Shown one piece after another: positions 1 through 4,400 of a stretch of DNA of 64,000 nucleotides. Under the pieces are notes generated by a model. That model searched no databases, was not told the origin of the DNA, and was given only the letters and a program-made list of their open reading frames with translations. A program made the translations under genes and the position numbers. Origin of the DNA: Verrucomicrobiia bacterium (GTDB lineage: Bacteria > Verrucomicrobiota > Verrucomicrobiia > Verrucomicrobiales > Akkermansiaceae); contig JAUIGV010000003.1 in the NCBI GenBank assembly GCA_030432565.1, positions 124,001 through 188,000 of the forward strand, read 5' to 3'. The number at the start of each line of letters is the position of its first letter. Position 1 is the first letter of the stretch.

Positions 1-894
1 AGCATGACCAGCGTGGGCGGCGAGCTTCAGGCGAAGAAAGGCTACTCCGGTTCCTTCTTTTCCGGAGCACTGACAACTCTCGTGGCGACCCCTTGTTCGG
101 GGCCATTCCTCGGAGCGGTGATGGCCTTTGCGCTTTCTCAGGATGACAAGGCGATTCAGTTCTCGGTCTTCACCGTCTTTGGGTTGGGAATTGCCTCACC
201 CTATATCCTGTTGTCCTTCTTCCCTGCCCTCATCAAGAAGTTGCCACGTCCGGGAGCGTGGATGGAAACCTTCAAGCAGGTCATGGCCTTCTTTGTTTTT
301 GCGACCGCGGTCTTCTTTATGAAAGGCTACCTCAAGTTGGTGGGCGACGATCACTTCAACGTCTTCCTCTTTGCCCTGTGTTTGATTGGTCTCGGAGTTT
401 ATATCTACGGTCGCTATGGCAACCAGGCTGTCGAAAAGACCAAGCGCTTTGTGACGGGTTTCGGGCTTGCCGGCGTGATGACGGTGGGTGGGATCGCTTG
501 GGCTTACTCGACGGCGAAGCCGCCCGAGCCGGGGTTGGCCTGGAACGAGTGGTATCCCGGAATTGTGGAACAATCGCGATCCAAGAAACGAATAATATGG
601 GTCGATTACACCGCCGATTGGTGAGCGACTTGCAAAGTGAACGAGAGCCGTGTGTTCTCGAATCAGAAAGTTCTCGATCGGTTGGAAGAGCTGGATGTGC
701 TCCTTATTAAGGCGGACAACACCGACAAGCTACAGTCCATCAATGATGATCTTAAGCGCTATGGTCGTGCCAATCTGCCCGTAAATCTGGTGGTGCCGGC
801 CGATCCCGATGCTCCAATCATTGTCATGCCGGAAGTCTTCGGGCCGGACGATGCCCTGCAAGCCCTTAAGGAAGCGGAAGCCCTCGGCAAATAA
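1..894 (+). CDS. dsbD: DsbD-like thiol:disulfide interchange protein with predicted selenocysteine (5' end outside window)
   Basis: DsbD moves reducing power across the inner membrane to periplasmic thioredoxin-like proteins. Numbering from the ATG at base 4, which is probably internal, membrane segments lie at about 18-45, 52-75, 93-108, 120-137 and 150-167. The first holds ATPCSGPFLG, the conserved Cys-Pro loop of the DsbD/CcdA membrane domain, so the gene begins upstream of the window. A C-terminal thioredoxin domain follows from about residue 180. Its active-site motif reads TADW-TGA-ATCKVNE, with the TGA at 622-624 standing exactly where the first Cys of CxxC belongs. The frame then stays open for 89 codons to TAA at 892-894, with conserved thioredoxin features such as the cis-Pro segment NLPVNLV. 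I infer that TGA is read as selenocysteine, giving UxxC. A nonsense mutation is the alternative, but a stop falling on this one codon with an intact remainder makes that unlikely. No sel genes lie in the window. Confidence 0.8.
625..671 (+). promoter_or_regulatory. Candidate bacterial SECIS hairpin after the in-frame TGA
   Basis: Directly 3' of the TGA at 622-624 the mRNA can fold. CGAGA at 642-646 pairs with TCTCG at 656-660, closing a nine-base loop that begins with G (647-655). A lower helix of TGA (638-640) with TCA (663-665), and ACTT (628-631) with AAGT (668-671), extends the stem. The apical loop starts 22 bases after the TGA. A short stem, a G in the first loop positions and this spacing match the general description of bacterial SECIS elements that recruit SelB. 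The fold was worked out by hand and no energy was computed. Confidence 0.6.
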
Positions 895-913: not shown

Positions 914-1393
914 ATGAATTTTTTCCCAATCATGGTTGCGGGTCTGTTGGCTGTGGTCGCTGCGATGTGGGCAAACCTCGATTTTCTAAACGAAAAACTG
1001 CTTCGTGCAAAACCACCGCTTTGCGCCCCTCCCTACGAGGTGGCATGGCTTCCCTGGAAACCGGGGTTGGTGGAGTTTACCAGGGATGGAGAGAGAATAG
1101 TATGGCTGCAATTCGCTTCCGACTGGGATATGACGGGTCACGTTAATGAAAAGAGAGTTTTCTCTGATGACGATCTCCTCCAGACCTTGGCGAAGCACCG
1201 GGTCTCCTTAATCAAGGCAGACCATACGAATCTCGACGAAGAGATCACAAAGGAACTTAAAAAATATGGGAGGTTTTCGATTCCAACGAACCTCATCTTT
1301 CCGGCAGATCTGGACAAGGAAATGATCATCCTTCCCGAATTGCTTGCGCCGGAGCTTGTCATTGAGGCCTTAGATAAAGCCGCCGGGAGGTAG
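914..1393 (+). CDS. Membrane-anchored thioredoxin-fold protein lacking the CxxC cysteines
   Basis: This 159-residue protein has an N-terminal hydrophobic anchor (about residues 4-20) and a thioredoxin-like domain. It aligns throughout with the linker and C-terminal domain of the DsbD-like protein just upstream: both have a W-x-W/E-x-x-PG-(L/I)VE segment, LIKAD, YGR and P-(V/T)-NL. The redox motif is lost. Where the neighbour has DW-U-A-T-C-K-VNE, this protein has DW-D-M-T-G-H-VNE, so Asp replaces the first redox residue and Gly the second. It can hardly do thiol-disulfide exchange by itself; a binding, chaperone or regulatory role towards the DsbD partner is inference. The start at 914 is chosen because GGAGAA lies about eight bases upstream and the anchor begins there; the frame is open further 5' inside the dsbD gene. 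The 19-base gap suggests co-transcription. Confidence 0.75.
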   Translation: MNFFPIMVAGLLAVVAAMWANLDFLNEKLLRAKPPLCAPPYEVAWLPWKPGLVEFTRDGERIVWLQFASDWDMTGHVNEKRVFSDDDLLQTLAKHRVSLIKADHTNLDEEITKELKKYGRFSIPTNLIFPADLDKEMIILPELLAPELVIEALDKAAGR

Positions 1394-1493: not shown

Positions 1494-4400
1494 ATGAAGA
1501 GCACGGGATTTATTTGGAAGGGGATTCGCCACTACCGGTCGGCCTATTGGGGGGTGCTTGCAGGGGCTGCAGTAGGGGCCATGGTGCTCCTGGGGGCGCT
1601 CATGGCGGGGGATTCCGTGCAAGAAAGTCTGACCCGGTCGGCTGCGTTGCGGACTGGCAAGGTGGCGAAGATTTTCTCAGGCGGAGAGCGATTTTTCCGG
1701 GCTGATCTGGCCGAGCGCAATGGTGGCTCGGCCATGATCTACCTGAAAGGGCAGGTGAATGTGGAGGAACGAGCCGAAGGGCAGGTTCAGGTGATGGGCG
1801 TTTCGGAGGACTTTTGGGACTTTGCTCCGCAGGAGGCTCCAGTCGATTTGTCGAATTTTGACGCTGCCATCAGCGGGCCCCTGGCGCGGGCCCTCGATCT
1901 CAAGGAAGGTGATTCGGCGGTGGTGCGCTTGCAAAAGCCGGGTCTCCTCTCGCGGGATGCCCCACTCTCGGGTGAGAGCGAGTCGGTATCCTCAATGCGA
2001 ATTACGGTGGCTAAGGTTTTGTCCGACGATGAGTTTGGGAGATTCAGTCTAGAGCAAACCCAGGTTCCTCCATCTTCGGTTTTTGTGCCGCTGAAGCGCC
2101 TTCAAAAGGTCCTTGATCTCAAGGGTAAGGCCAATGCTCTTTTGTTGGATGAGGACCAGTCCTTTGATCCGGGTAAGCTGGAATTGGCGGATTACGGGAT
2201 CTCGGTGGTCGAGGTGCCGGGTGGCGTGGAGCTGCGTTCCGAGCGTATTTTCATCGAGCCCAGGATCGCTGAAAGGATCGAGGGCGAACCGGTACTTACT
2301 TATTTGATCAATACGCTGGCAACCGAGGTCGGAGAAACACCGTACTCCATGGTGACAGCGGTGAGCGGGAAGTCGGCGATGTTTCTCCCCACCCAGCCCG
2401 GAGAAGGGGAGGTTGTCATCAATGACTGGCTGGCAGAAGATTTACGGGCCCAAATCGGCGACGAGTTGACGATGGACTATTTCGTCGTGGAATCCGGCAG
2501 CAAGCTGGTTGAAAAGCGTGGGGTTTTCACGGTCAAGGCGATCGTGAAAATGGAGGGCCCGGCGGCGGATCAGCGCTGGATGCCTGACTTTCCGGGAGTG
2601 GCCGATGTTGAGAGCGCCCGTGATTGGGAGCCGGGATTGCCTCTGGATTTGACCCGGATCCGTGACAAAGACGATGAATATTGGGAGAACTTCAAGGGGA
2701 CTCCAAAGGCCTTTGTTTCGTATGAGGCCGGGGAGAAGCTCTGGGGCAACCGCTGGGGGAAGGTAAGCGGAATGCGGATTCCGGGCGGGAAGGTGGATGA
2801 TGTTTCAAGGTCTGCTCGAGGGGTGTTGGATCCTTCTTTGGCCGGGATGCAGGTCATGGATTTTGCCGGGCAAGCCAGGGAGGCTGCGAAGTCGCCGGTA
2901 GACTTCGCCGGTCTTTTTCTGGCGATGAGTTTTTTCCTGATTATTGCCGCGATTGCTTTGGTGGCGATGTTGTTTCGCTTTAACGTGGAACAGCGGGCGG
3001 AGGAAGGCGCTCTTCTTTCGGCGGTTGGAATCCGGGCAGGAAAGATCACCAATTGGCGGATCGGTGAAGCTTTCTTTGTGGTGCTCGCGGGGGCGCTTGC
3101 CGGAACCCTTCTGGCAACGGTGTTCTGCACGATGGTGCTCAAGGTGATCAGTTCGATTTGGGGTGAAGGAACAGCTTTTGAACTTCACCTGAGCGGAGGA
3201 ACAATTGTGACGGGCATCGTGGTGATCGTGGAGCTTTCCCTCCTGGCGGTCTGGCTGACGACCCGCAAGCAGGCGAAGCAGAGCGCCAGCATGCGGCTCA
3301 ACTCGGGAGCCGAGGAGGAAGTGGGCAAGCCCAGCAGGTGGGCGACCGGTTTTCTGGTTTTTGGACTTCTTCTGGTGGCGGGAGGAATTGCAATGAGCTT
3401 CAGCGCAGCGGCACAGGGTGCCTTCTTCCTGGTGGGCTTCGGGGTGTTGGTGACCGGATTGGCCGCCTTCCGGAAGCGATTGGCAAGGATTGGCTCGTTG
3501 GGAGAACTTTCACCGGATGGTATGGCCAAGGTGAACCTTTCTCGTCGGGCTTCGCGAAGTTTGACGGTCGTCGGCGTGCTGGCTGCCGGAGTTTTTCTGG
3601 TCCTCTCGGTGGCCTCGTTCCGAAAAAACGGAGGAGAAAACTGGCAGGACAAAAGGAGCGGAGCCGGTGGATTTGCGTGGTGGGTCGAGACCACTTCCCC
3701 GGTGAACCGGCCGGCGGATGCCAAGGGCGAGGTTGATTGGTTTGGGCTGGAAACCCTGGTTCCGTTCCGGATTGGTGCGGGCGACGATGTGGATTGTTTC
3801 AACCTGACCGCCTCCACCCAACCCCGCCTGCTCGGTGTGGATCCTGATCTCCTCGAAGGTCGCTTTCGCACAAGCGATGATTGGTCTTTTTTGAAAGGCG
3901 ACGGGGTGCCGGCCTTTGTCGATGAAACGACAATGATGTGGGTTTTGAAAAAGAAGGTGGGTGATGAGTTGGTCTATCAGGACGAATGGGGGAATGATTT
4001 CCCGATTACGATTGCGGGTGTGGTCAAGGACTCGGTTTTTCAGGGCAGTTTGATTTTGGACGAGGCGAAACTTCTGGAGAAATTCCCCTCGCTCGGCGGG
4101 TATCAACTCTTTCTCTCACCCGACGAAAAGGCGCGTGAAACTTTGCAGGAGGAGACCGCGGATCTTGGCGGCAAGGTGACCGCGACGAAAGATCGACTCG
4201 CTGCCTTCCATGAGGTTGAGAATACCTACATCGCGATCTTCAATGTTCTCGGTGGATTGGGAATCATCCTCGGAAGCTTCGGAGTGGGAATCGTGACTGC
4301 TCGCAATCTGGTGGAACGGAAAGCGGAATTCGAAACGCTCCGGGTGCTTGGGATTTCGAAACTGCGACGATCAAGGATTGTGAAAAGGGAGGTGCGCTCA

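Follow-up and report, generated by a model that had tools for sequence, protein, structure and literature searches.

The first 894 nucleotides of the window (the whole stretch of 64,000 nucleotides that was analyzed, from a Verrucomicrobiia bacterium, a marine-type member of the family Akkermansiaceae) contain a dsbD-like reading frame interrupted by an in-frame TGA. The question raised by this locus is whether the TGA ends the gene or is read as selenocysteine (Sec) and, if the latter, what kind of protein is made and what the substitution would mean for its function.

Reading frame and protein family

The frame is open from the first base of the window to the TGA and, when this codon is read through, continues for a further 89 codons to a TAA (Table 1). 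An earlier note on this DNA had described the same frame, and translation confirmed its coordinates. The gene is cut by the window edge and starts approximately 1.6 kb upstream (genome G000, contig C41; about position 3675 of locus L051, MKHRFLIFILTVFLAPLALAQ); its start codon is a choice among closely spaced methionines, and the exact one is presumed. The full open reading frame encodes a product of approximately 739 amino acids, and the TGA falls near residue 650. It also places the first Cys of the membrane domain (MPCVFP) upstream of the window.

We compared the full gene, with the TGA translated as Cys, with the Pfam, NCBIfam, and PDB collections, using queries that omitted the first 10 codons counted from the presumed start. 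Matches to PF11412 (DsbD_N), PF02683 (DsbD_TM), and PF13899 (Thioredoxin_7) were all above the Pfam cut-offs, giving the order nDsbD-like domain, DsbD membrane domain, and thioredoxin domain. All redox pairs of DsbD can be seen: the N-terminal domain has CDETC, the membrane domain MPCVFP and TPCSGP, and the thioredoxin domain U-ATC. The extended active-site residues of DsbD are likewise present. The protein hence shows the features of the DsbD family, namely an N-terminal DsbD domain, a membrane domain with a Cys pair, and a C-terminal thioredoxin domain with a C/UxxC motif.

Searches with a profile of the thioredoxin domain returned cDsbD structures as the top matches (E 3e-11), and in the alignment the TGA falls on the first Cys of ADWCVACK, the E. 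coli motif, in keeping with the place that the earlier note had given it in the thioredoxin motif (TADW-U-ATC). An AlphaFold2 model of this domain (pLDDT 92) was best fitted by the cDsbD structure 2fwf (Z 14.4, rmsd 2.2, 116 residues), a result with which Foldseek agreed. These structural and sequence matches also give the protein the feature of the cd02953-type UxxC selenoproteins, i.e., a DsbD-gamma domain, which we take cd02953 of CDD to be, with the predicted Sec first in its motif. Against NCBIfam models, the full protein scored 111 bits for DsbD (NF001419; curated cut-off 330) and 178.5 bits over residues 325-684 for TsoB (NF045694; curated cut-off 805). Though it falls under the cut-offs of both the NCBI DsbD subfamily and TsoB, the product is a DsbD-family protein; the Pfam domains above cut-off and the model nearest to cDsbD bear out the DsbD-like identity proposed in the earlier note.

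Within the genome (G000), one DsbD_TM protein was found above the cut-off; a second, weak match is a 240-aa frame (26.0 versus 27.1 bits). The Sec-encoding gene is probably the only full-length DsbD of this 97% complete draft genome. A selenoprotein of this kind could still have a different main job, acting as an ScsB-like protein or as a peroxide- or metal-stress reductase instead of exporting electrons to nDsbD-type clients. Selenols react fast with peroxides, and the sole structure found with the full-protein sequence was 6c29, a 'putative metal resistance protein', matched weakly in the N-terminal domain (E 0.0016). However, the protein keeps every DsbD redox pair together with the extended active-site residues, and the genome yielded no second full-length DsbD, both of which argue against such a role; we consider it unlikely.

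Table 1. Features of the predicted selenocysteine-encoding dsbD gene and the adjoining domain copy (window positions).
Feature	Position	Strand	Basis
3' part of the predicted Sec-encoding dsbD: end of membrane domain, C-terminal thioredoxin domain, TAA 892-894	1..894	+	Pfam on full gene, translation, full open reading frame
Codons TPC; Cys32 of P0001, second membrane-domain Cys (TPCSGP)	91..99	+	Near-invariant in alignment A2; full open reading frame
UGA predicted to be read as Sec, at the first Cys of the DsbD-gamma CxxC motif	622..624	+	Codons of homologues; alignment with cDsbD motif
Resolving Cys of the UxxC motif	631..633	+	Invariant in alignments A2 and A4
Predicted SECIS hairpin	642..660	+	Covariation, synonymous-codon conservation, synonymous recoding test, published bSECIS geometry
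Pro260 of P0001, at the cis-Pro place of the thioredoxin fold (NLPVN)	778..780	+	Invariant in alignment A2
Membrane-anchored thioredoxin-domain copy without redox residues (W-D-MTG-H)	914..1393	+	Identity to Sec domain, PF13899 match, occurrence in genus

The TGA codon, its hairpin, and the selenocysteine machinery

Every one of the 27 close homologues inspected has TGA at this place, among them those of all 24 genus members in which this part of the gene is present, and so does one further family member (G427). The 80 named homologous loci have TGA (12), TGC (48), or TGT (20) here and no other codon; the in-frame UGA therefore matches a position at which homologues have a conserved Cys, as required of a selenoprotein gene. 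Codon differences after the TGA lean synonymous, with 28 synonymous versus 8 non-synonymous differences against L004 and 33 versus 14 against L010; some counts for the region before the TGA, from L014 onwards, were spoiled by indels and were left out. The earlier note had suggested that relatives be searched for Cys or TGA at this place, and both the close homologues and the named loci hold one or the other, with a conserved domain beyond.

A hairpin with a 7-bp stem (642-648 paired with 654-660) and an apical loop CGUGU (649-653) lies 18-36 nt after the TGA, where the earlier note had placed a SECIS-like stem-loop, and 24 nt separate the UGA from the loop. The published bSECIS model specifies a stem of 4-16 bp and a loop of 3-9 nt that has a G within its first two positions and lies 16-37 nt from the UGA (PMC13188914), and the hairpin has this geometry. 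Covariation adds to the case: across the 27 distinct homologous sequences compared, the stem is paired in 92.6% of cells, compensatory changes occur in three of the seven pairs (U-A/C-G, G-C/A-U, and C-G/G-C), and changes on both sides of a pair number 16 cells compared with 4.4 in shuffles, while sliding the arms lowers pairing to 28-67%. The U-A/C-G and G-C/A-U pairs arise from paired synonymous changes, i.e., AAC/AAT with TCG/TCA and GAG/GAA with TTC/TTT, respectively.

Conservation at the level of synonymous codons points the same way. Synonymous-codon identity over +4 to +11 reaches 87% within the genus, compared with a mean of 48% (sd 10%), the strongest such conservation inside the coding sequence, with higher values only upstream of the start codon. 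A hairpin of such local stability appeared in 0.04% of synonymous recodings; what is unusual is the local hairpin alone, folding z-scores of the whole stretch being uninformative. Among the homologues, the stems of L018 and L021 carry two mismatches each, the hairpin would need another register in L030, L063, L095, and L112, and no good hairpin was found in the same register in L031.

The complete set of Sec genes to which the earlier note had pointed, i.e., selA, selB, selC (tRNA-Sec), and selD, was found in the genome: selA scored 489 bits, selB 316 bits, selD 387 bits, and a tRNA-Sec with anticodon TCA (UCA) 54.4 bits. An in-frame TGA also occurs in selD, at the usual position (CGG-U-ASK; L048, about 1531-1533, G000:C73), and the Sec machinery therefore needs UGA recoding of its own. 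Across the genomes compared, selA was detected in 26 of 28 with TGA (a total that takes in G056, whose TGA was counted without a check of its position) versus 8 of 26 with Cys (Fisher p 2.5e-6, uncorrected for kinship); the two TGA genomes in which selA went undetected are 86% and 72% complete. In one genome, selB begins approximately 0.3 kb past the end of the Sec-encoding dsbD gene (L014 2386-2953, G013:C88). A single short frame lies between these two genes and reads, by eye, like an IF-1-type protein.

These observations bear on two rival accounts of the locus. One, very improbable, is that translation truly ends at the TGA, or that this codon is a sequencing error, with the frame beyond it a remnant or a separate gene. 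TGA is a stop in translation Table 11 and the listing of open reading frames does give an 85-aa frame from GTG 637, but this GTG lies beyond both the motif region and the resolving Cys, the synonymous bias persists after the TGA, the SECIS pairs covary, and homologues with Cys at this codon have one unbroken frame. The TGA is also identical in 27 assemblies, which excludes the sequencing error that the earlier note had considered. The other account, insertion of an amino acid other than Sec through general reassignment or suppression of UGA, would explain the open frame by readthrough alone and is just as hard to credit, given that the homologous gene in G006 and G011 ends at an ordinary TGA (which rules out general reassignment), that tRNA-Sec (UCA), selA, selB, and selD are present, and that the UGA alternates with Cys codons only, with a conserved hairpin after it.

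We conclude from these sequence comparisons that the gene very likely encodes a DsbD-type transmembrane thiol:disulfide reductase in which Sec, inserted by means of SelB and the hairpin, is the first residue of the UxxC motif in the C-terminal thioredoxin domain. The conserved parts and the full sel set suggest that SelB carrying Sec-tRNA(UCA) would recognize the hairpin, leading to insertion of Sec in place of termination. A scan of the window gave five more TGA codons near Cys, none of which has anything to support it as a Sec site; the longest of these candidates (58307, minus strand) has nothing recognizable past the stop.

Distribution of the predicted Sec form and a downstream domain copy

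When the phylum was sampled evenly, 156 of 388 genomes gave a match and, among the matches listed, two hold TGA; the Sec version is therefore a minority form in the phylum. A quick tree needed five Sec/Cys changes, at least three of which are forced by well supported branches, and the Sec forms split in two: those of Akkermansiaceae together with Planctomycetota metagenome-assembled genomes (MAGs), and those of further Verrucomicrobiota together with a Kiritimatiellia MAG. Possible reasons for this distribution are inter-phylum transfer, MAG binning errors, or repeated exchange of Cys and Sec. The Sec DsbD is carried by L057, L059, and L060 in the Planctomycetota MAGs and by L063 in the Kiritimatiellia MAG. 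The first three, which group with the Akkermansiaceae forms, have the SECIS loop CGUGU in common, possibly through transfer or MAG binning error.

At +7 from the Sec/Cys position (window codon 643-645; homologues L002-L131), 24 of 25 Sec forms and 10 of 70 Cys forms have Glu, and 58 of the 70 Cys forms have Lys. A causal link between Sec and Glu at this place was considered and dropped: the tree holds three independent pairs, and the SECIS stem includes this codon as well.

Immediately downstream, the product of 914-1393 shares 43% identity with the Sec domain and matches PF13899 with 28.2 bits; both of its redox residues are replaced and the cis-Pro position is kept. It is probably a duplicate of the Sec domain. 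The copy is intact in three of 27 genomes of the genus (G000, G003, and G021, the last with W-G-LIS-Q), and a broken remnant is present in G009. Between G000 and G003, 14 synonymous and 16 non-synonymous codon differences were counted in 159 codons, indicating weak constraint. It may be a duplicate that is losing its function or a redox-dead partner.

Electron transfer and relation to known systems

By homology to E. coli DsbD, electrons would pass from cytoplasmic thioredoxin to the Cys pair of the membrane domain, from there to the Sec/Cys pair of the periplasmic thioredoxin domain, and then through the CDETC pair of the N-terminal domain to periplasmic clients. In E. coli, the membrane domain reduces cDsbD, which in turn hands the electrons to nDsbD; its Cys-461 has a pKa of 10.6, due to Asp-455 and Glu-468, and the hold of these two residues on the pKa protects the reduced domain from side reactions (PMC3961690). 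Lys can replace Gln-488 in this protein, the Q488K variant working like the wild type (PMC3961690). The window protein has equivalents of Asp-455 and Glu-468, i.e., Asp at Sec-6 and Glu at Sec+7, and a Lys aligned with the place of Gln-488, so that the thiol-restraining setting would be kept around the selenol. Since the intrinsic pKa of a selenol is approximately 5, one would expect the Sec form to react more readily than the thiol at neutral pH. The redox potential of electron export may differ too, as the earlier note had proposed. We put forward only tentatively, and with some doubt, that Sec bypasses the pKa gate of DsbD-gamma, being reactive at neutral pH and allowing faster or peroxide-reducing electron export, with selenium supply controlling periplasmic reduction in the genus.

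The protein resembles E. coli DsbD (cDsbD structures 2fwf, 1vrs, and 4ip1; PMC3961690) in domain order, redox pairs, and thioredoxin fold; in contrast, it has Sec for Cys-461 and scores below the NF001419 cut-off. TsoB, a rhodanese/DsbD fusion-like selenoprotein, similarly combines DsbD-like membrane and thioredoxin parts, but has a rhodanese part where the window gene has DsbD_N and is listed with two Sec residues (UxxxxU), whereas the window protein has one.

The earlier note had held that Sec in the thioredoxin domain of DsbD is little described. This view did not stand: a 'Thiol:disulfide interchange protein' selenoprotein was catalogued in Syntrophus and Geobacter in 2006 (PMC1794560), 22 sequences of cd02953 with UxxC were reported from the Global Ocean Sampling set (PMC2398784), and a 2026 catalogue again contains 'Thiol:disulfide interchange protein' selenoproteins, as PF13098 (PMC13188914). 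Given these catalogues of 2006-2008 and 2026, we dropped the idea that Sec in such proteins is undescribed. The UxxC members are like the window protein in having Sec first in the motif; compared by description only, they come from Deltaproteobacteria or marine metagenomes, whereas here a complete DsbD gene is fixed in an Akkermansiaceae genus. No paper on a Sec DsbD in Verrucomicrobiota was found in a literature search that reached few subscription journals. New here are a complete and apparently only full-length DsbD with Sec, fixed across one Akkermansiaceae genus, and the predicted occurrence of Sec DsbD in some Planctomycetota and a Kiritimatiellia MAG.

For annotation, the locus is a trap, as gene callers would split what is apparently the only full-length DsbD of the genus and leave a truncated protein without its thioredoxin domain. 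For the family, Sec would take the place of the thioredoxin-domain nucleophile of DsbD, a residue whose mechanism has been well studied and whose unusual pKa has been explained in E. coli. With a natural Sec variant that keeps the same acidic residues nearby, one could ask directly what is gained by Sec in transmembrane electron transfer.
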